Assembly: GCF_004369205.1 (NCBI RefSeq)
Contig: NZ_QFGA01000003.1
Span: 62,001-126,000, forward strand
DNA length: 64,000 nucleotides
Origin: Pelotomaculum schinkii
Lineage (GTDB): Bacteria > Bacillota > Desulfotomaculia > Desulfotomaculales > Pelotomaculaceae
Direction of reading: 5' to 3'
Shown here piece after piece: positions 2,760-10,434 of the stretch. The position numbers were made by a program, and so were the translations under genes. Numbering within the stretch: position 1 is the first letter of the stretch; each line of letters opens with the position of its first letter. The notes beneath the pieces are model-generated. The model did not search any database and was not told where the DNA came from. It saw only the letters and a list, made by a program, of their open reading frames with translations.

Positions 2760-3797
2760 ATGAAGTTGCAGACGATAAAGGTAGAGGAAGCGGTAGGAAA
2801 GGTGCTCAGCCACGATATCACCCAAATCGTGAAGGGAGAAGCCAAGGGAGCGCTTTTTAAAAAAGGGCACATCATAAGGCCGGAAGACGTACCCGAGCTT
2901 TTGCGGTTGGGCAAGGAAAATATCTATATCCTAGACCTTGACCATGGTGACGTCCATGAGGACGAAGCCGGTGTGCGCCTGGGCGAAGCTGTCACCGGCG
3001 AGTGGGTAACCTGGTCCGGCCCCAAGGAAAGCCGGGTGAACATGCACGCCGCCTGCGACGGGCTGCTGAAAATCAATATTCCCGCCCTGGAAGCGATCAA
3101 CGAGCTGCCGGACGTGATTTTATCGACCCTGCCCAACAATACGGTGGTCAAAGAAGGCGAACTGCTGGCAGGGACCAAGGTCATACCGCTGGTCGTACCC
3201 GAAACAACAGTCACAGCCGCTGAAGACATCTGCCGGCAGGCTGGCGGCTGGGTCATCAAGGTGCTTCCCTTTAAGGAATTAAAAGTGGGCGCGGTCATTA
3301 CCGGCAGCGAGGTATATAAAAAGCGTATCCGGGACGGTTTCGGACCGGTCATCACCGAGAAAGTGGAAGCGTTCGGTTCAGAGATACTGGGCATAGATTT
3401 CGCGCCTGACAACGCTGAAATCATTGCCGCCAAGATCAACAAAATGGCCTCGGAGGGAGCGGATATCATCTTTGTAACAGGAGGCATGTCCGTCGACCCC
3501 GACGACGTCACCCCCAACGCCATTCGCCTGGCGGGAGCCAGGGTGGAGAAATACGGCGCCGCCGCGCTGCCCGGCGCGATGTTTATGCTGGCCTACCTGG
3601 GGGACGTCCCGATCATGGGAGTGCCGGCCTGCGGGATGTTTTTCAAAATAACCGTCGTGGACTTAATCCTGCCGCGGTTGTTGGCGGGTGAGCGGGTAAC
3701 CCGCAGGGACATCGTGGCGCTGGCCTGCGGCGGGCTCTGCAGGGCTTGTCCCGAGTGCCGGTATCCCAACTGCACCTTCGGCAAAGGCTCGCACTAA
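2760..3797 (+). CDS. Molybdopterin-binding (MoCF-domain) protein with C-terminal cysteine cluster
   Basis: A 345-residue protein with a MoeA/MogA-type molybdopterin-binding fold in its second half: VGAVITGSEVYKKRI near 178, then IIFVTGGMSVDPDDVTPNAI near 240. The first half resembles proteins encoded beside xanthine-dehydrogenase-type maturation genes. It is not a full MoeA. The C-terminus carries five cysteines at 323, 327, 330, 333 and 338 (C-x3-C-x2-C-x2-C-x4-C), which could bind an iron-sulfur cluster or zinc. AAGGAG near 2746 precedes the ATG. It leads into xdhC and yqeB genes, so it probably acts in molybdenum-hydroxylase cofactor handling. Confidence 0.8.
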   Translation: MKLQTIKVEEAVGKVLSHDITQIVKGEAKGALFKKGHIIRPEDVPELLRLGKENIYILDLDHGDVHEDEAGVRLGEAVTGEWVTWSGPKESRVNMHAACDGLLKINIPALEAINELPDVILSTLPNNTVVKEGELLAGTKVIPLVVPETTVTAAEDICRQAGGWVIKVLPFKELKVGAVITGSEVYKKRIRDGFGPVITEKVEAFGSEILGIDFAPDNAEIIAAKINKMASEGADIIFVTGGMSVDPDDVTPNAIRLAGARVEKYGAAALPGAMFMLAYLGDVPIMGVPACGMFFKITVVDLILPRLLAGERVTRRDIVALACGGLCRACPECRYPNCTFGKGSH

Positions 3798-3875
3798 CCT
3801 GAAAATAACATTGCCAACGACTATTCAGCGAGGCATGTATGGCAAAATAACGCCAAAAATCCAGGGAGGAGGTTA

Positions 3876-5021
3876 TTGGAGTATATGGAAAGCAACCTGG
3901 AGCAAGGGATAACCATAGTGACCGTCATAGGCAAGCAAAACCTTCCCGACAGCCTCTTGGGGCAAAAAGCAATATTCAAAAATAACGGTGAAGGGAAAGC
4001 AGGGAACCTGGAGCTGGCCTGGCTGGCAGAGCAGGCGGCGGAAATGGTCCAAAGTAACCGGTCCAACGGGATGTTTGAGGTAGCGACCCTGTCCAACCCG
4101 GCCAAACCGGAGCAGAGCGCCACAGTTATGATCGCCCCCTACCAGCCGCCGCATGGACTGATCATTTTAGGCGGCGGCCATATAGCCGTGCCGCTGGCAG
4201 CTATCGGGAAAATACTGGGGTACCAGGTTACGGTAGTCGACGACCGGCCTGACTTTGCTCACAAAGAGCGTTTTCCCGGGGCCGACAGAGTCATCTGCTG
4301 CGACTTCAGCGACATGGAAAGCCACCTGGAGCTGGGGCCGTCAAGCAGTGTGGTAATAATCACCAGGGGCCACCAGCACGACCAGGAATGCCTGCGCCGG
4401 TTGATCAAATACCCCCTGGCTTACCTGGGCATGATCGGCAGCAGGCGAAAGATAAAAATAGTCAGGCAGCAGTTGCTCGAAGAAGGTATAGACGCCGGAA
4501 AACTGGAGCAGGTGCACATGCCGGTAGGTTTGGACGTAGGGGCGCAGACCCCCGGAGAGGTGGCCGTAAGTATAGCCGCGGAATTGCTCAGAGAGCGCCG
4601 CGGCGGGAGCGCCCGCTCCCTAAAAGACCACAGCCCGCAGAAGTCCGCCGGCGACGTTGAACTGCCTTCCGCGGCGGACAGAGAAGTATTGCAGAAAACG
4701 CTCACAGGAGATCAAACACCTGCGGCGCTGGCCACAATAGTAAAAACACGGGGCTCCACCCCCCGCAAAGCAGGCGCGCGGATGCTGGTTTACGGAGACG
4801 GCCGGATTTTGGGGACAATAGGGGGCGGTTGCGGTGAGTCGGAGGTCCGGCTGGCCGCCCTTGGTGTGATTGACGAAAACTTGCCGCGCATGTATAAAGT
4901 GTCGCTTAGCGCGGACACGGCGGCTGCGGAAGGGATGGTCTGCGGCGGCGCGATGGAAGTATTCATAGAACCGGCAGGCGGGTATCAAGAGGTTTTTAGC
5001 GGGGGTGAAAAAAATAAGTAA
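3876..5021 (+). CDS. XdhC/CoxI-family molybdenum hydroxylase maturation protein, permuted domain order
   Basis: About 381 residues. XdhC/CoxI proteins handle and sulfurate molybdenum cofactor before insertion into xanthine or CO dehydrogenase-type enzymes. Here the Rossmann domain comes first (GGGHIA at 99-104, TRGHQHDQECL near 171, GMIGSRR near 193). The CoxI domain follows (TRGSTPRKAGARM near 298, GTIGGGCGES near 320, GMVCGGAMEVF near 363). In many XdhC proteins the order is reversed. The start is uncertain: TTG at 3876 and ATG at 3885 both lie after the strong GGGAGGAGG at 3864-3872. The end overlaps the next gene by 17 bases, so the two are translationally coupled. Confidence 0.85.
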   Translation: MEYMESNLEQGITIVTVIGKQNLPDSLLGQKAIFKNNGEGKAGNLELAWLAEQAAEMVQSNRSNGMFEVATLSNPAKPEQSATVMIAPYQPPHGLIILGGGHIAVPLAAIGKILGYQVTVVDDRPDFAHKERFPGADRVICCDFSDMESHLELGPSSSVVIITRGHQHDQECLRRLIKYPLAYLGMIGSRRKIKIVRQQLLEEGIDAGKLEQVHMPVGLDVGAQTPGEVAVSIAAELLRERRGGSARSLKDHSPQKSAGDVELPSAADREVLQKTLTGDQTPAALATIVKTRGSTPRKAGARMLVYGDGRILGTIGGGCGESEVRLAALGVIDENLPRMYKVSLSADTAAAEGMVCGGAMEVFIEPAGGYQEVFSGGEKNK

Positions 5022-5817
5022 AAATAAAGCAGTGGTAGTGATAAGAGGAGCCGGCGACCTCGCCTCAGGGGTCGCTTACCGTCTTTACAAGAGCGGCCTG
5101 GACGTGATCATGACCGAAATAGAACGCCCGCTGGTGGTAAGAAGGACCGTGTCGTTTGCCGAGGCGGTATATGAAGGGAACGTCACCATAGAAGGGATAG
5201 AGGCCGGCCTGGCCGGTTCGGTGGAAGGGGCCCTGTCATTGCTTGAAAAAAAGGTCATCCCGGTGCTGGTGGACCCCGCGGCGGCCGTGGTAAAAGATGC
5301 GCGTCCCGCGGTGGTGGTGGACGCGAGGATGGCCAAACGCAACCTCGATACCACCATCGGGGACGCGCCGCTGGTAATCGGCCTGGGGCCGGGCTTCACC
5401 GCCGGCGTCGACGTCCACGCGGTAATTGAGACCTGCCGGGGACACCGGCTGGGCCGGGCCATTTACAGCGGCGGCGCCATTCCGGACACCGGCGCTCCGG
5501 GAGCGGTGGACGGCTATACCCTGGAGAGGCTGTTGAGGGCCCCTGTGGACGGAGTGATGGCGCCGCGCTGTTCTATCGGGGAGCAGGTAGAAAAAGGAGA
5601 TGTGGTGGCCTATGTCGAAACAACACCGGTATATGCGGAAATGACGGGAATGGTAAGAGGCATGCTCAAAGAGGGGCTGTGGGTTCCCAAAGGGACCAAG
5701 ATAGGTGACATCGACCCGCGCCAGGACGCCGAATATGACACCATCTCCGATAAAGCGCTGGCTGTCGGCGGAGGGGTTTTGGAGGCGGTATGTCATTTCC
5801 TTAACAGCAACCAGTGA
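5005..5817 (+). CDS. yqeB: YqeB/EF2563-family selenium-dependent molybdenum hydroxylase system protein
   Basis: A 270-residue protein starting with GTG inside the end of the XdhC gene. The N-terminal IRGAGDLASGVAYRL is a nucleotide-binding Rossmann motif. Central IGLGPGFTAGVDVHAVIETCRGH and YSGGAIPDTGAPG segments match the EF2563/YqeB family, which is linked by genome context to selenium-dependent molybdenum hydroxylases. No hydroxylase, SelD or YqeC gene is in the window, so the client enzyme must be elsewhere or upstream. The 2760, 3876 and 5005 genes probably form one maturation operon. It ends before paired hairpins and a strong terminator. Confidence 0.85.
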   Translation: MKKISKNKAVVVIRGAGDLASGVAYRLYKSGLDVIMTEIERPLVVRRTVSFAEAVYEGNVTIEGIEAGLAGSVEGALSLLEKKVIPVLVDPAAAVVKDARPAVVVDARMAKRNLDTTIGDAPLVIGLGPGFTAGVDVHAVIETCRGHRLGRAIYSGGAIPDTGAPGAVDGYTLERLLRAPVDGVMAPRCSIGEQVEKGDVVAYVETTPVYAEMTGMVRGMLKEGLWVPKGTKIGDIDPRQDAEYDTISDKALAVGGGVLEAVCHFLNSNQ

Positions 5818-5921
5818 ACACATTGAATTACGCAAAGGAACATGATTTGTAATGAAGATTATCAATCCTGAACGGGTTCCTAAGGTCAGGATTGGGTGCA
5901 GCCATTGGCTCCGTCTAGTTT

Positions 5922-5968
5922 AAAAAAATTAGTTGCCAGGGATTATTTCCGGCGCAACTAATTTTTTT
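5922..5968 (+). terminator. Intrinsic terminator after yqeB
   Basis: A perfect 15-bp stem pairs A7TT-AGTTGC (5922-5936) with GCAACT-AAT7 (5954-5968). It ends in a run of T residues. It closes the molybdenum-hydroxylase maturation operon. Confidence 0.88.
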
Positions 5969-6000
5969 GCTCAAGGATTAGTTATACTTCTTGAAAAATG

Positions 6001-6043
6001 TTGACATATGCCCAAAACCAATTTAAGATAATAATGGGCATAT
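6001..6043 (+). promoter_or_regulatory. Promoter flanked by a 9-bp inverted operator (ATATGCCCA/TGGGCATAT)
   Basis: TTGACA at 6001-6006 and TAAGAT at 6024-6029 are separated by 17 bases. Perfect inverted 9-mers, ATATGCCCA at 6006-6014 and TGGGCATAT at 6035-6043, lie at the edge of the -35 box and at the predicted start site. This placement is typical of a repressor operator. Related GCCCAT sites occur near the next two promoters in the cluster. Confidence 0.7.
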
Positions 6044-6123
6044 ACCTATTTTAGTAAGGCTAGGAATAGTCTTTATGATTTCGCGTAACCGCGATTATTC
6101 TAATAAAACGGAGGTGGACAATT

Positions 6124-6465
6124 ATGCCGGGAGGAGACAGGACTGGCCCGCTGGGATTAGGAGCTCGTACAGGTAGAGCAGGCGGGTATTGCGCAGGCTT
6201 TGGAGCGCCGGGTTATATGAATCAGGTACCTGGCTTTGAATATGGCCCTGGATGCGGACAGGGGGCAGGTTTCGGTCCGGCCGGCGGCCGGGGAGCCTTC
6301 CGGGGACGCCGTTTGGGGCGTTCTTTTAGTGGCGGTTATCAGTATAGCGCTCCAGCATACATTCCTATTCTTTCAAAATTTTTGCTTCATTTGTCAGATA
6401 AGCAACTTTCCCTGATGGAAAAAAGGCTCGCAGAACTGGAAGTATTAAAGAAAAGTAAGGATTAG
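6124..6465 (+). CDS. DUF5320-family glycine-rich protein
   Basis: Small 113-residue protein. The N-terminus, MPGGDRTGPLGLGARTGRAGG, is the signature of DUF5320 proteins, usually written MPxGDGTGPxGxGPxTGR. A Gly/Arg-rich middle follows, then a helical C-terminus rich in Leu/Lys (residues 78-113) that may form a coiled coil. Function is unknown. Such genes are found next to NifX/NifB-like iron-molybdenum cofactor proteins and DUF134 proteins in anaerobes, as here. GGAGG at 6111-6115 fits the ATG. Transcription is probably from the promoter at 6001 and is likely regulated through the inverted ATGCCCA sites. Confidence 0.8.
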   Translation: MPGGDRTGPLGLGARTGRAGGYCAGFGAPGYMNQVPGFEYGPGCGQGAGFGPAGGRGAFRGRRLGRSFSGGYQYSAPAYIPILSKFLLHLSDKQLSLMEKRLAELEVLKKSKD

Positions 6466-6679
6466 TAACTATCAACACAAAAACATAAATGGCATACACA
6501 AAAGGTGGCTCTGCAGTAAGAAATCTTTAACATTAAGATGGCGGGGGCACCTCTTCTTTATGGTTGTAACTGTGGCGCCTTGCGTTTTTTTCCATAATTC
6601 CTAATAGGATGACGGCAAAATGATATTTCATTCATAAACTGCTATTGCTCATGCTTGTACCTTTGGATTGAATTAATAA

Positions 6680-6728
6680 TTGACATATGCTCTAAATAAT
6701 TTATACTTAATATATGAAGAACGCCCAT
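6680..6728 (+). promoter_or_regulatory. Promoter with downstream GCCCAT half-site
   Basis: TTGACA at 6680-6685 and TATACT at 6702-6707 with a 16-base spacer make a strong sigma-A promoter. A GCCCAT half-site at 6723-6728 falls just downstream of the predicted start. It probably drives the remnant and the DUF134 gene. Confidence 0.6.
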
Positions 6729-6751
6729 TGTGTCTTAATGAGTAACATATT

Positions 6752-6810
6752 ATGCCATAAGAGATGATATGGGTTCTATGACAGGAAGGAGCAGGTTCAT
6801 GTGCAGGTAA
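6752..6810 (+). pseudogene. Remnant of a DUF5320 gene
   Basis: The stretch begins ATGCC and, after a frame change, reads RDDMGSMTGRSRFMCR then stop. This matches the first 20 or so residues of DUF5320 proteins (MP..DGTGPMG.MTGR...). It lies 290 bases downstream of the intact DUF5320 gene and has its own promoter, so it is probably a decayed second copy. The evidence is a short motif only. Confidence 0.5.
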
Positions 6811-6927
6811 GTATTACCCGGTTTTTGCCAATCATGGAGGAGTTGAGGATGAAAAATATAGTCCCGGTAAATAAGTGAAATATGGTAGAATAAATATAAA
6901 TAAGAATATAGAAAGGGGAATGCCAAG

Positions 6928-7401
6928 TTGGCAAGACCGCCTAAATTGAGAAGGGTTGAATTCATTCCAAATATACAGCACTTTGTGCCTTTAAGCATAC
7001 AAACAAATACTATCGGAGAAAACGTTTTACTGATTGAGGAAATTGAAGCTATACGTTTAAAGGATCTAGAAAAACTGGAGCAGGAAGAGTGTGCCGAAAA
7101 AATGGAAGTATCTAGGCAAACCTTCCAGCGGATCCTCAATAATGCAAGGGAAAAAATTGCCGACAGCATTATAAAAGGAAAAGCTATACGTATAGAAGGC
7201 GGGAATTTTACCCGCAATATTTGTCCGGTGCGGTGTCTTGATTGTGGTAAAGAGTGGAAGGAAAGCTATGAAAACTTTGAAAAAGTAATTAATGGCGAAT
7301 ACTCATGTGCGAATTGCCGATCAAAAAAAATAATCTGCCTGCATACCAATGGTCAAAAATTTTGCCGGCGCAATTGCTGGAGAAGGGGAAGGATTGATTA
7401 A
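6928..7401 (+). CDS. DUF134-family putative DNA-binding protein with zinc-ribbon-like tail
   Basis: 157 residues. The opening MARPPKLRRVEFIP and the helix-turn-helix-like stretch around 40-80 (EIEAIRLKDLEKLEQEECAEKM...SRQTFQRILNNAREKIA) are typical of DUF134, which has a sigma-70 region-4-like HTH. The C-terminus adds CLDCGKEW, CANC and two more cysteines (CLHTNG, CRRNC), a probable metal-binding ribbon. The start is TTG, set by AAAGGGG at 6912-6918; the nearby ATG at 6920 is out of frame. The gene lies among three promoters with GCCCAT sites and is the best candidate for the regulator that binds them (inference). Confidence 0.82.
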   Translation: MARPPKLRRVEFIPNIQHFVPLSIQTNTIGENVLLIEEIEAIRLKDLEKLEQEECAEKMEVSRQTFQRILNNAREKIADSIIKGKAIRIEGGNFTRNICPVRCLDCGKEWKESYENFEKVINGEYSCANCRSKKIICLHTNGQKFCRRNCWRRGRID

Positions 7402-7413
7402 TAAACTATATTT

Positions 7414-7437
7414 AAAAGAGTCTTGTAAGGCTCTTTT
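7414..7437 (+). terminator. Intrinsic terminator after the DUF134 gene
   Basis: AAAAGAG (7414-7420) pairs with CTCTTTT (7431-7437), ending in a T-rich run. It separates the DUF134 gene from the NifU-like gene. Confidence 0.65.
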
Positions 7438-7517
7438 TATTTTTATTGAGTAACAGTGGATATTTCTGGTTTTTGCTGTTTAGAAATATTATCACTGGTT
7501 ACACTGCTTTGTAATTA

Positions 7518-7575
7518 TTGACAGATTGGTGAAAGAGTGCTATTATTCTTTATAGCCAAATGGGCAAAAGCCCAT
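7518..7575 (+). promoter_or_regulatory. Promoter and ATGGGC-N4-GCCCAT operator of the NifU-like gene
   Basis: TTGACA at 7518-7523 and TATTAT at 7541-7546 have an ideal 17-base spacer. A perfect palindrome, ATGGGCAAAAGCCCAT, covers 7560-7575, just after the predicted start site. It shares its half-site with the operator at 6006-6043. Confidence 0.72.
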
Positions 7576-7659
7576 AATACCCATTGGTCAGCAGCGGAGA
7601 TGCAGTTGAATTCTTGGCAATTGAATTCTTATCTTAAATTCTATTAAGGACGTGACTGT

Positions 7660-8052
7660 ATGTACGATGAGGTCTATAATGATACGGTATTTGACCATTT
7701 CATGAACCCTAGAAATGCTGGAGTGATAAACGATGCAGATGGATTTGGGGTTTGTGGTGATCCTGGTTGCGGTGATTTTTTGACCATATATATCAAAGTT
7801 GCAAACGACACCATCGCGGATATAAGCTTTCTTGTTTTCGGATGCGCTGCTGCAATAGCAACAAGCAGTATGACGACCGAACTGGCCAAAGGTAAGGCGT
7901 TAGAGGAAGCAATAAAAATAACTGAAGATGATATTATAGAGGCATTGGGCGGGCTGCCGGAGCATAAGCAGCATTGTTCAAACCTTGGGGTAAAAGCTTT
8001 AAGAAGCGCTATTGAGAATTACTATAATAAAACCATTGAGAAATACCAATAG
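7660..8052 (+). CDS. NifU/IscU-like iron-sulfur cluster scaffold protein
   Basis: A 130-residue scaffold on which Fe-S clusters are built before transfer. The three cluster cysteines are in place: GDPGCGDFL near 34-42, FGCAAAIATSS near 64-74 and KQHCSNLGVKAL near 104-115. The aspartate after the first cysteine, typical of the family, is kept. The N-terminus YNDTVFDHFMNPRNAG is also characteristic. It is an N-terminal NifU-type domain only. No IscS/NifS desulfurase is next to it, and its context (DUF5320, DUF134, GCCCAT operator) suggests a specialised or metal-regulated scaffold rather than the housekeeping SUF system. Confidence 0.85.
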   Translation: MYDEVYNDTVFDHFMNPRNAGVINDADGFGVCGDPGCGDFLTIYIKVANDTIADISFLVFGCAAAIATSSMTTELAKGKALEEAIKITEDDIIEALGGLPEHKQHCSNLGVKALRSAIENYYNKTIEKYQ

Positions 8053-8097
8053 AGTAATTAACTATTTATCATTTATTAAGTTGTGGAGGCTCCCGGC

Positions 8098-8331
8098 ATG
8101 ATTTTAGAACGTGTTTATGATTCAGCCCTGTCAAGGCTTGCGGGGAAAAAAATAAAAGAGGTCAGGATAGGCCTGGAATTGATGGCTGTTGAACTGGATG
8201 ACGGGGCAATTGGCGTTACCTATGTATTAAGAAAGGAAATAGGTCATGCCTGTGCAGCGCTTCCCAAGGCCGGAAGCCTTTTGGGAATGCCTGCCTGTCC
8301 TTTCAGGAACAAGATGGCAATCGTCACATAG
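8098..8331 (+). CDS. Short DUF4213-like protein, probably truncated
   Basis: 77 residues starting at ATG 8098, 8 bases after TGGAGG (8084-8089). It matches the N-terminal DUF4213 half of the DUF4213-DUF364 proteins (SALSRLAGKKIKEVRIGLELMAVELDDG...TYVLRKEIGHACAALPKAG). It then ends abruptly after GMPACPFRNKMAIVT. The C-terminal heavy-metal-chelation half is missing, so this is either a stand-alone domain or a truncated gene. No convincing remainder of DUF364 was seen in the next 200 bases. A fuller relative lies at 1946. Confidence 0.6.
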   Translation: MILERVYDSALSRLAGKKIKEVRIGLELMAVELDDGAIGVTYVLRKEIGHACAALPKAGSLLGMPACPFRNKMAIVT

Positions 8332-8518
8332 AGACGCTATTCACCTTGGTATAAGCCAGTGCGCCGGAATGAAGCAATTAATCAAGTACGGGCAGAAGAT
8401 GTCAGTAAAAGTTAAGTAATAAAAAAAACCTGCAAGAGTTAATTTTTATACCATTAATGGTTACTATGTTGCATAATGGATGTATGGTTATTCATCAATT
8501 TAAAAAAATTGCCGAGGA

Positions 8519-8547
8519 TTGTCCCATTTTAGTATATATGATATAAT
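8519..8547 (+). promoter_or_regulatory. Promoter of the MoaD-moaA operon
   Basis: TTGTCC at 8519-8524 and TATAAT at 8542-8547 with a 17-base spacer lie 58 bases before the MoaD-like gene. The -10 box is consensus. No Moco-riboswitch-like leader was recognised between the promoter and the genes. Confidence 0.6.
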
Positions 8548-8605
8548 TTAATAGCTTCTGCGGAAGTTTTATTTGGCGTTCCTTGCAAGAGGAGGCTTAA
8601 ACTCC

Positions 8606-8845
8606 ATGCATTTAGAAGTAAGAGTGTTTAGTGGGTTGGAAAAACATATTCCGGGCGCCCGCTTCGGACAGCCTATAAAGGTAAATATCACGGAGCATTT
8701 TACCTGCAGGATGCTTTTGGACAAGCTCAATATTCCGGAAAAAGAGGTATTTATTGTACTTGTAAACGGTGTGAACACGGCGCTTGATGACGCGCTTGCT
8801 GATGGTGACCGCATATCTCTTTTCCCGCCGGTTGGTGGAGGTTGA
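8606..8845 (+). CDS. MoaD/ThiS-family sulfur carrier protein
   Basis: 79-residue beta-grasp sulfur carrier. It ends in PPVGGG, and the C-terminal Gly-Gly is the residue pair adenylated by MoeB-type enzymes and then thiocarboxylated. ITEHFTCRMLLDKLNIP, FIVLVNGV and LADGDRISLFPPV are typical of MoaD-like proteins. The ATG at 8606 is preferred over the longer frame from 8573 because GAGGAGG at 8589-8595 precedes it. It stands directly upstream of moaA. A MoeB-like partner is encoded at 11183. Supply of sulfur for molybdopterin is the likely role; tungsten-cofactor use is possible. Confidence 0.82.
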   Translation: MHLEVRVFSGLEKHIPGARFGQPIKVNITEHFTCRMLLDKLNIPEKEVFIVLVNGVNTALDDALADGDRISLFPPVGGG

Positions 8846-8979
8846 TATTATGCTGACCAGGATAGGAACGGGGCAACATTCGTAGACGCCCTTTTAATTT
8901 TTACCGGCATTTATTTAGACTAATTTTCTTAGTAATTGACTTGTCAAATAATTGGACAACATTTGGGAAGGTGATAAGA

Positions 8980-9960
8980 ATGCGGGATACCTATCAGCGG
9001 GATATTAACTATCTAAGGGTTTCTGTTACTGATCGCTGCAATCTGCGCTGTGTTTACTGTATGCCGGCTGAAGGCGTTAAGGCTCTTCCCCACGACGAGA
9101 TTTTACGTCTGGAGGAAATAGAAACCATCGTTAGAGCTGCCAGTCTTATAGGTGTCAAAAAGATACGCCTGACCGGTGGTGAGCCGCTGGTGCGTTTAGG
9201 GCTGGAAAGCCTGATCCAGCGTATTTCGAACATCCCGGGCATAGACGACCTTACCCTGACCACCAACGCCCTGCTTCTACCAGGCCATGCGTCTTCTTTA
9301 AAGGAAGCAGGTGTTAAAAGGGTGAACATAAGTCTGGATACCCTGCGGACGGAACGCTACCGTGAAATAACCAGAGGCGGCGATCTTGCTACAGCGTGGG
9401 AAGGCATCAATGCTGCATTGGACGCCGGAATGCACCCGGTCAAGATCAATACGGTGGTGATGCGCGGCTTCAACGACGACGAAGTGGTGGCAATGGCCCG
9501 GCTCACTTTAAACAGGCCGATCCATGTGCGTTTTATCGAGGTGATGCCGATCGGCTCTTCAAATTCCTGGACCAACGGGCGCTTTGTGCCGACTGAGGAA
9601 ATTATAGCGCAGATAAGCTCCAAACTAGGCCCGCTCCTTCCGGCCAAGATGTCTTCCGGCAGCGGTCCCGCCAAGTATTATCAACTGAAAGGCGCGGAAG
9701 GCACGATTGGCTTTATTGCCTCAATGAGCGAACATTTCTGCCAGAGCTGCAACCGGCTGCGTCTTACAGCGAACGGCGCTTTGCGGCCGTGTCTTTACGA
9801 CAGCCGCGAGGTAGACCTTAAGACACCCCTGCGTGCTGGAGCCGATCTCAAAGAACTCGCGGATTTATTTATGGATGCGGTAGCTCTCAAACCGGATCGC
9901 CACCATATGCTGGAGGGCTGGCGTGACAAAAGCAGGGTTATGTCCCAAATCGGCGGCTGA
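8980..9960 (+). CDS. moaA: GTP 3',8-cyclase MoaA
   Basis: Radical-SAM enzyme of 326 residues that starts molybdenum-cofactor synthesis by cyclising GTP. The N-terminal SAM-binding cluster motif CNLRCVYC lies near residues 20-27. The C-terminal cluster comes from HFCQSCNRLRLTANGALRPCL, and the protein ends in Gly-Gly as MoaA requires. LTGGEPLVR and TLTTNALLL are also typical. The ATG at 8980 follows GGGAAGGTG and is preferred to the TTG at 8941. It works with MoaC, encoded at 18490. The MoaD-like gene is immediately upstream. Confidence 0.95.
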   Translation: MRDTYQRDINYLRVSVTDRCNLRCVYCMPAEGVKALPHDEILRLEEIETIVRAASLIGVKKIRLTGGEPLVRLGLESLIQRISNIPGIDDLTLTTNALLLPGHASSLKEAGVKRVNISLDTLRTERYREITRGGDLATAWEGINAALDAGMHPVKINTVVMRGFNDDEVVAMARLTLNRPIHVRFIEVMPIGSSNSWTNGRFVPTEEIIAQISSKLGPLLPAKMSSGSGPAKYYQLKGAEGTIGFIASMSEHFCQSCNRLRLTANGALRPCLYDSREVDLKTPLRAGADLKELADLFMDAVALKPDRHHMLEGWRDKSRVMSQIGG

Positions 9961-9999
9961 TCACATCACAACACCGTTTACGGAAAGGGAGTACTATGA

Positions 10000-10434
10000 A
10001 TGGGTATAATAAAAGCGGTATGCGCCAGTGCCGAAAAAGGAATGCGTAAAAAGGATGTTGGGGAAGGATTGCTGGTGCAGGAGCATGGCCTGCAGGACGA
10101 TGCCCACGCCGGTCCCTGGCGCCGCCAGGTCAGCCTGTTGGCCATGGAAAGCATTGACAAAATGAAAGCGCTGGGTCTTGATGTGGGACCCGGTGATTTT
10201 GCCGAAAATTTGACCACCGAAGGAATTGACCTGGTCCACCTGCCTATCGGTACCCGGTTGAGAATCGGAGCTGAGGCAATAGGGGAGGTCACACAGATCG
10301 GTAAGGAATGCCACAACAGGTGCGCTATTTATTACCAGGCGGGTGATTGTGTGATGCCGAAAGAAGGCATTTTCATCCGGGTTCTGAACGGTGGTACAGT
10401 CAAAAACGGCGACACCATAGAAGTGATTTCTTAA
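10000..10434 (+). CDS. MOSC-domain protein
   Basis: 144 residues forming a stand-alone MOSC domain, a beta-barrel related to the C-terminus of Moco sulfurase and thought to carry sulfur or cofactor. Family features visible are LQDDAHAGPWRRQVSLL (near 28-44), GPGDFAENLTTEGIDL (near 63-78), TQIGKECHNRC and the conserved cysteine context CVMPKEGIFIRVL. Such proteins are often encoded with moaA, mogA and moaC in anaerobes. AAAGGGA at 9984-9990 supports this ATG; the ATG four bases upstream is out of frame and soon stops. Confidence 0.85.
   Translation: MGIIKAVCASAEKGMRKKDVGEGLLVQEHGLQDDAHAGPWRRQVSLLAMESIDKMKALGLDVGPGDFAENLTTEGIDLVHLPIGTRLRIGAEAIGEVTQIGKECHNRCAIYYQAGDCVMPKEGIFIRVLNGGTVKNGDTIEVIS

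Follow-up and report, generated by a model that had tools for sequence, protein, structure and literature searches.

A palindrome fused to the -35 hexamer recurs across Bacillota at DUF134, DUF5320 and NifX/NifU-type genes, with DUF134 as its candidate repressor

The gene run and its operator sites

The window, by which we mean the whole 64-kb stretch that was analysed (contig C3:62001-126000 of a 4.4-Mb genome), holds a run of genes for DUF5320, DUF134, a NifU_N-type protein and DUF4213. Three sigma-70-type promoters serve the run: P1 in front of DUF5320 (TTGACA-17-TAAGAT), P2 in front of DUF134 (TTGACA-16-TATACT) and P3 in front of the NifU gene (TTGACA-17-TATTAT). The features are as follows, with scores and ranks from the matrix described below.

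5997-6018, plus strand: operator site 1 of P1, AATGTTGACATATGCCCAAAAC, an exact TTGACATATGCYC match fused to the -35 TTGACA at 6001-6006; score 21.6, rank 2
6024-6029, plus strand: -10 hexamer of P1, TAAGAT, 17 bp after TTGACA, with 4/6 letters of TATAAT
6031-6052, plus strand: operator site 2 of P1, ATAATGGGCATATACCTATTTT, near the start site; score 18.9, rank 3
6124-6465, plus strand: DUF5320 gene, 113 aa, regulon member; PF17253 at 55.6 bits (cut-off 27)
6676-6697, plus strand: operator of P2, ATAATTGACATATGCTCTAAAT, fused to the -35 at 6680-6685, with the -10 TATACT at 6702-6707; score 22.9, rank 1
6928-7401, plus strand: DUF134 gene, 157 aa, TTG start, candidate regulator; PF02001 at 80.6 bits (cut-off 27)
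7518-7546, plus strand: core promoter P3, TTGACA at 7518-7523 and TATTAT at 7541-7546, 17-bp spacer
7557-7578, plus strand: operator of P3, CAAATGGGCAAAAGCCCATAAT, with its palindrome at 7560-7575, downstream of the NifU-like promoter start; score 15.7, rank 4
7660-8052, plus strand: NifU_N-type Fe-S scaffold gene, 130 aa; PF01592 at 146.2 bits (cut-off 22)
8083-8331, plus strand: short DUF4213 ORF (putative heavy-metal chelation); PF13938 at 41.3 bits over profile positions 1-49 of 75

By the profile search the gene after DUF134 belongs to NifU_N and is not NifX-like; the protein falls below the cut-off of the NifU_clost equivalog TIGR03419 (165.7 vs 187.9). The cluster is flanked by genes that read as MoeA-like, XdhC-like, MoaD-like and MoaA-like (window 2760-10434; molybdenum cofactor), with only the MoaD-like one matched to families and the others read by eye.

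The earlier note had proposed GCCCAT inverted sites as the feature that the three promoters share. Its letters are present at every position that it gave for P1, P2 and P3, including the P1 half-sites ATATGCCCA (6006-6014) and TGGGCATAT (6035-6043) that flank the -35 and the start region. As a shared motif GCCCAT does not hold up, since it is not enriched: the window has 35 copies with 49.4 expected. In the 4.4-Mb genome there are 5 places with the spaced form ATGGGC-N0-30-GCCCAT and 9 with its reversed control. Worded in this way the motif would be chance. The finding is real, but the motif had been drawn at the wrong place.

What the promoters have in common is a palindrome of about 22 bp with the consensus GTTATTGACATATGCYCATAAC (site 1), fused to the -35 hexamer. 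A second copy, ATGRGCATATGNYCATAAC, often lies about 34 bp downstream of it, near +1, with ATAATGAGCATATGCCCATAAC as the consensus of this site 2 in majority letters. P1 and P2 share TTGACATATGCYC, in which the -35 hexamer runs into TATGCYC. Framed correctly, the element is not chance because TTGACATATGCYC occurs four times in the genome and its reversed control not at all. A looser genome pattern gave 39 matches against 25 in its control and was too loose to count. We also built a 22-bp matrix solely from the second sites of other genomes, and the four places that it ranks highest in the 64-kb window are the four sites of the cluster (22.9, 21.6, 18.9 and 15.7, with the fifth place at 9.3). 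At P2, the GCCCAT half-site that had been noted at 6723-6728 (plus strand) is outside the 15 best matrix places of the window and so is unsupported; the real site is TTGACATATGCTC at 6680-6692, on the -35.

The fusion of site 1 with a -35 is genuine: of the 123 distinct sites, 110 are followed at 16-18 bp by a -10 (at least 4/6 letters, with A at the second and T at the last place) where 20.9 would be expected. The spacing to the second copy is just as regular. Downstream of 67 sites, an exact second CATATG was found within 12-109 bp in 32 cases, with 31 of these at 32-40 bp, among them 22 at 34 or 35. For a second CATAWG in the named set (see below), 25/31 lie at 31-36 bp and 3 at 45-47. The two sites of P1 are 34 bp apart centre to centre, the same spacing class as in relatives.

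Recurrence in the genome, in relatives and across the phylum

All four TTGACATATGCYC matches in the host genome (4/4) are at DUF134, DUF5320 or NifX-type operons. The two outside the window also lie in promoters: one belongs to another DUF134 gene, which has a NifX-type gene behind it, the other to a NifX-DUF5320-MinD/Fer4 operon. A ferredoxin-like ORF that adjoins this operon on contig C3 (locus L120, 1705-2076 and about 2296) has a near-copy operator pair of its own, TTGACATACGTTCA followed by TTATGCTCATAA.

Sixty relatives gave 24 matches in 15 genomes (control 1). Across 299 Bacillota genomes, TTGACATATGCYCA had 72 matches in 53 genomes, with 6 for the reversed control and 10 for a scramble that kept the -35. 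These matches mostly precede genes for DUF5320, NifX-like, MinD/Mrp-like, NifU-like and DUF134 proteins and other metal-related genes. We took flanks of about 6 kb, contigs permitting, around the matches in the phylum and the relatives, and 1.5-kb flanks around the scramble loci. An ORF for DUF5320, NifX, DUF134, MinD/Mrp or NifU starts within 1 kb downstream on the same strand at 67 of 94 TTGACATATGCYC sites (the match loci plus seven earlier loci, some sites being counted twice) and at 0/10 scramble sites. The other 27 sites have no cluster gene downstream, and several of them look like chance (no -10, no cluster).

An independent set was made of 80 named loci, relatives of the window DUF134. 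These hold 39 exact sites in 31 loci, where three scrambles and the reversed pattern gave 0. With up to one mismatch there are 65 sites in 42 loci (three scrambles 0, reversed pattern 1), and 38 of the 65 precede the five core families, 16 precede site-seeded families and 11 neither. The site-seeded families (flavin reductase, MBL, ZnuA, deformylase, radical SAM, thioesterase, Fur) give circular counts, and only DUF5320, NifX, MRP, DUF134 and NifU count as independent. Twenty of the 80 loci have no site that scores at least 14. A phylum scan with TTGACATATACCCA is weak taken alone (13 matches in 12 genomes against 7 for the reversed control), and DUF134 lies beside the site at 5/13 of its loci. 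By the earlier note's own refuting condition, the motif would be missing upstream of orthologous clusters or just as frequent across the genome; once reframed, the motif was not refuted by this search.

Fe-S and metal proteins make up the targets, namely NifU, proteins with a dinitrogenase-cofactor domain and ATPases of the ferredoxin-bearing MinD type and the NUBPL/Mrp type, and the named set adds genes for flavin reductase, metallo-beta-lactamase-fold proteins, ZnuA and deformylase. The operator, its placement on promoters with 17-bp spacers, the spacing and the content of the regulon can all be read directly from the sequences.

Some loci deserve mention on their own. At L285, L294 and L321, one-mismatch sites upstream of ZnuA-type zinc-uptake genes run into a second, GCAAATGCGTTTCATTCGCA-like palindrome, which we take to resemble a Zur box. 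Sites at L284 and L311 precede peptide deformylase genes. L148/L152 (G001:C148:10720-10923) has two near-identical TTGACATATGCCC promoters in tandem, and about 0.8-1 kb further on begins an ORF that reads by eye like the FAD subunit of a molybdenum hydroxylase. L307, from a record labelled as a Desulfobulbaceae MAG (non-Bacillota), has operators with DUF134, DUF5320 and NifU, by transfer or mis-binning.

DUF134 is itself part of the regulon, as had been suggested from its place inside the cluster, and its own promoter P2 has an operator, which is what is looked for in an autoregulated repressor. Within 350 bp upstream of DUF134, TTGACATATGYYCA with up to one mismatch is found at 19 of 83 genes in relatives (0.0 expected), and at 25 of these regions with up to two mismatches (0.4 expected). 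Most of the 80 named loci have no operator directly upstream of DUF134; in that subfamily the operator's usual place is the promoter that follows DUF134, or a position further upstream.

The candidate regulator and its mode of action

We read the four sites as operators of one regulon that recurs across Bacillota, in which DUF134 probably binds and represses its own gene and metallocluster genes (probability about 0.68). The binder, the repression, the dimers and the signal are what we infer.

The window DUF134 matches only PF02001 and PF08281 in Pfam, and no Rrf2 or FUR domain. PF08281 (Sigma70_r4_2) is below its cut-off (22.5 vs 25.7). A predicted model with a mean pLDDT of 78.6 has helices at 36-47, 52-58 and 63-83, the last being the predicted recognition helix, which is opened by Arg63 (codon 7114-7116). 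Sigma region 4 is the domain by which RNA polymerase reads the -35. The predicted fold of residues 31-84 is like sigma-70 region 4 and a DeoR-type HTH: the best Z against sigma region 4 is 7.2, which is under 8 and so not firm, and the DeoR-type HTH has a fold match and a profile match (E 5e-4). The fold search with the model gave no PDB match at E <=0.001, and local Foldseek matches were at E 0.16 or weaker. DUF134 differs from sigma factors in that it has no other sigma region and carries a Cys-rich tail. This tail has a weak likeness to zinc-finger and similar chains, and Cys103, Cys106, Cys127 and Cys130 are invariant in 26 aligned DUF134s.

The most likely protein on the sites is DUF134, or else the paralogue that the same genome has at C1:1967960, and on the sequence comparisons we consider DUF134 quite probable in this role. 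It is the recurring DNA-binding family of the motif clusters, and among the families that recur in 76 motif loci no other DNA-binding family comes near it in frequency. This also speaks against a rival explanation, which keeps the operator and the regulon but has a different regulator (Fur-type, DtxR/MntR-type or unnamed) as the binder and DUF134 only as a regulated gene. Fur-family and DtxR/MntR-like ORFs do lie behind some sites, and co-occurrence across genomes cannot separate DUF134 from its targets. Against this, Fur-type ORFs are the nearest target family for just 3/76 sites, and the operator variant tracks the DUF134 subfamily. We regard another binder as unlikely.

The tracking was seen by comparing helix and operator over 210 distinct DUF134 proteins. 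Where the case is unambiguous, Arg at helix residue 2 has CATATG nearby in 80 of 86 and Gln has TATATA in 5 of 5 (Fisher p 1e-5), a pattern that fits the preference of Arg for G and Gln for A in DNA reading. For six proteins with an Arg helix the nearest site is of the TATATA form; three of these belong to one ARSS clade, which breaks the simple rule. In this genus (L388-L390; G189, G242 and G266), the DUF134 helix reads ARSS, and the sites at DUF5320 are TATATA-type despite the Arg at helix residue 2. Fifteen of the 20 Gln-helix proteins have no unambiguous site, and the Gln helix arose once on the DUF134 tree. After correction for descent, one pair is for the covariation, none against and four are uninformative; since this is not significant, we use the covariation as a hint only.

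DUF134 matches are found in 198/299 of the sampled Bacillota genomes. The motif is present in 46/193 genomes with DUF134 and 7/106 without (p 1e-4), where five genomes with only weak DUF134 matches under the cut-off are counted as without. Inside DUF5320-positive genomes the two are not associated (42/143 with DUF134 vs 4/11 without), so with DUF5320 kept constant, genome-wide co-occurrence says nothing about which protein is the regulator. Among the four exceptions with motif and no DUF134, the site in G167 has no cluster context, G204 has it at a contig end, G305 has DUF134 fragments nearby and G104 is unexplained.

P3 needs its own argument. Site 1 has been lost from its -35, and the score taken alone is weak, as 15.67 was reached somewhere in 20/200 shuffled windows. 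Its palindrome ATGGGC-AAAA-GCCCAT, which the earlier note had singled out and which is supported here, has no CATATG and differs from ATGGGC-ATAT-GCCCAT solely in the centre. These points would fit a reading in which P1 and P2 carry operators and the P3 palindrome is unrelated, such as a chance hairpin. We find this quite unlikely: the site is fourth in the window and inside the cluster, and a relative's locus (L273) has the same AAAA-centred palindrome, TTATGGGCAAAAGCCCAAAAAA, at the same place. The interval is also the commonest place for an operator in the named loci, where 27/78 have a site in the +500 to +750 bin after the DUF134 start and every other bin has 0-6. We accept P3 as an operator because of its position and because relatives carry it, the score being insufficient alone. 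In the close relatives L270 and L271, the promoter after DUF134 carries site 1, and a hand count puts another site 46-47 bp beyond it; the pattern search gives 47 for L270. P3 is therefore most likely what is left of an ancestral pair, namely its second site.

As for the mode of action, DUF134 could bind and activate, its sigma-4-like domain helping to recruit polymerase to the -35. The overlap of the site with the -35 and the resemblance of the domain to sigma region 4 would suit this, but the promoters already have good -35 and -10 hexamers with 17-bp spacers, and the second site near +1 would block polymerase, which makes activation very unlikely. That the resemblance among the sites is due to chance or base composition, as the lack of enrichment of GCCCAT itself might suggest, has virtually no probability left, since all enrichment controls are contrary and refute it for the reframed motif.

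Repression by DUF134 would work as follows. One dimer would sit on the -35 palindrome and another on the copy near +1, some three turns of the helix further along, so that the promoter is closed; paired sites over the -35 and +1 point to polymerase occlusion, that is, to repression. Besides its own gene, DUF134 would thereby repress DUF5320, genes of the NifU/NifX/MinD-Mrp type and further metal genes. Its Cys-rich tail may bind a metal or an Fe-S cluster and so set the occupancy of the operator. Our guess for the signal is iron or Fe-S status first, with molybdenum or another metal second; molybdenum is considered because of the molybdenum-cofactor neighbours seen by eye in the window. The proposal of one repressor at three promoters stands as far as the shared operator goes, which is placed as a repressor site across the phylum, with repression itself as its inferred part.

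More tentatively, and at somewhat less than even odds, DUF134 (UPF0251, which we take to be its UniProt name) may be an unrecognised metalloregulator family for anaerobic metallocluster handling across Bacillota, in which a sigma-4-like domain would bind the -35 palindrome and the Cys4 tail would sense Fe-S or metal for a defined regulon. The regulon, with NifX/orange-protein-like proteins, MinD-Mrp-like ATPases, NifU, DUF5320, flavin reductase, the metallo-beta-lactamase fold and some zinc-uptake and deformylase genes, would then be a metallocluster response.

Comparison with known systems

Among the literature matches listed (titles and abstract starts, with subscription papers largely outside) there is no work on the function of DUF134 and none on DUF5320 function; the name UPF0251 occurs in a table row. 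None of the matches listed has the 14-mers, and their titles are not about this regulon. The statement that no operator had been described for the DUF134 family agrees with this, as none was seen among the matches listed. Two families that are blank in function, DUF134 and DUF5320, would thus gain a defined operator, a candidate regulator and an Fe-S/NifX-type regulon that can be tested. The operator, regulator and regulon would also open a way into the control of metallocluster genes of the 'orange protein' type in anaerobes, beyond the Desulfovibrio sigma-54 system.

The Desulfovibrio orp system is similar in its NifX-like (dinitrogenase-cofactor) proteins, its MinD/Mrp-type ATPases with ferredoxin domains and its occurrence in anaerobes (PMC6345978). 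Transcription from the orp promoters depends on sigma-54 and requires IHF (PMC3897727). In contrast, the sites here belong to promoters of the sigma-70 type whose spacers are 17 bp long, and the regulon includes DUF134. The 110/123 sites with a sigma-70-type -10 at 16-18 bp do not fit sigma-54-dependent promoters.

IscR is autoregulated. In its way of working, DUF134 would resemble such IscR/Rrf2-type regulators, of which IscR is a repressor of Fe-S assembly genes (PMC4618611). The window protein differs from them as it matches DUF134 and, weakly, Sigma70_r4_2, and has no Rrf2 domain.

Tfx of Methanothermobacter resembles a sigma-4-type HTH. This DNA-binding protein is encoded beside a molybdenum-enzyme operon and binds downstream of its promoter, and transcription of the operon is molybdate/tungstate-dependent (PMC3087415). 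Tfx differs from DUF134 in being archaeal and in being described for one operon.
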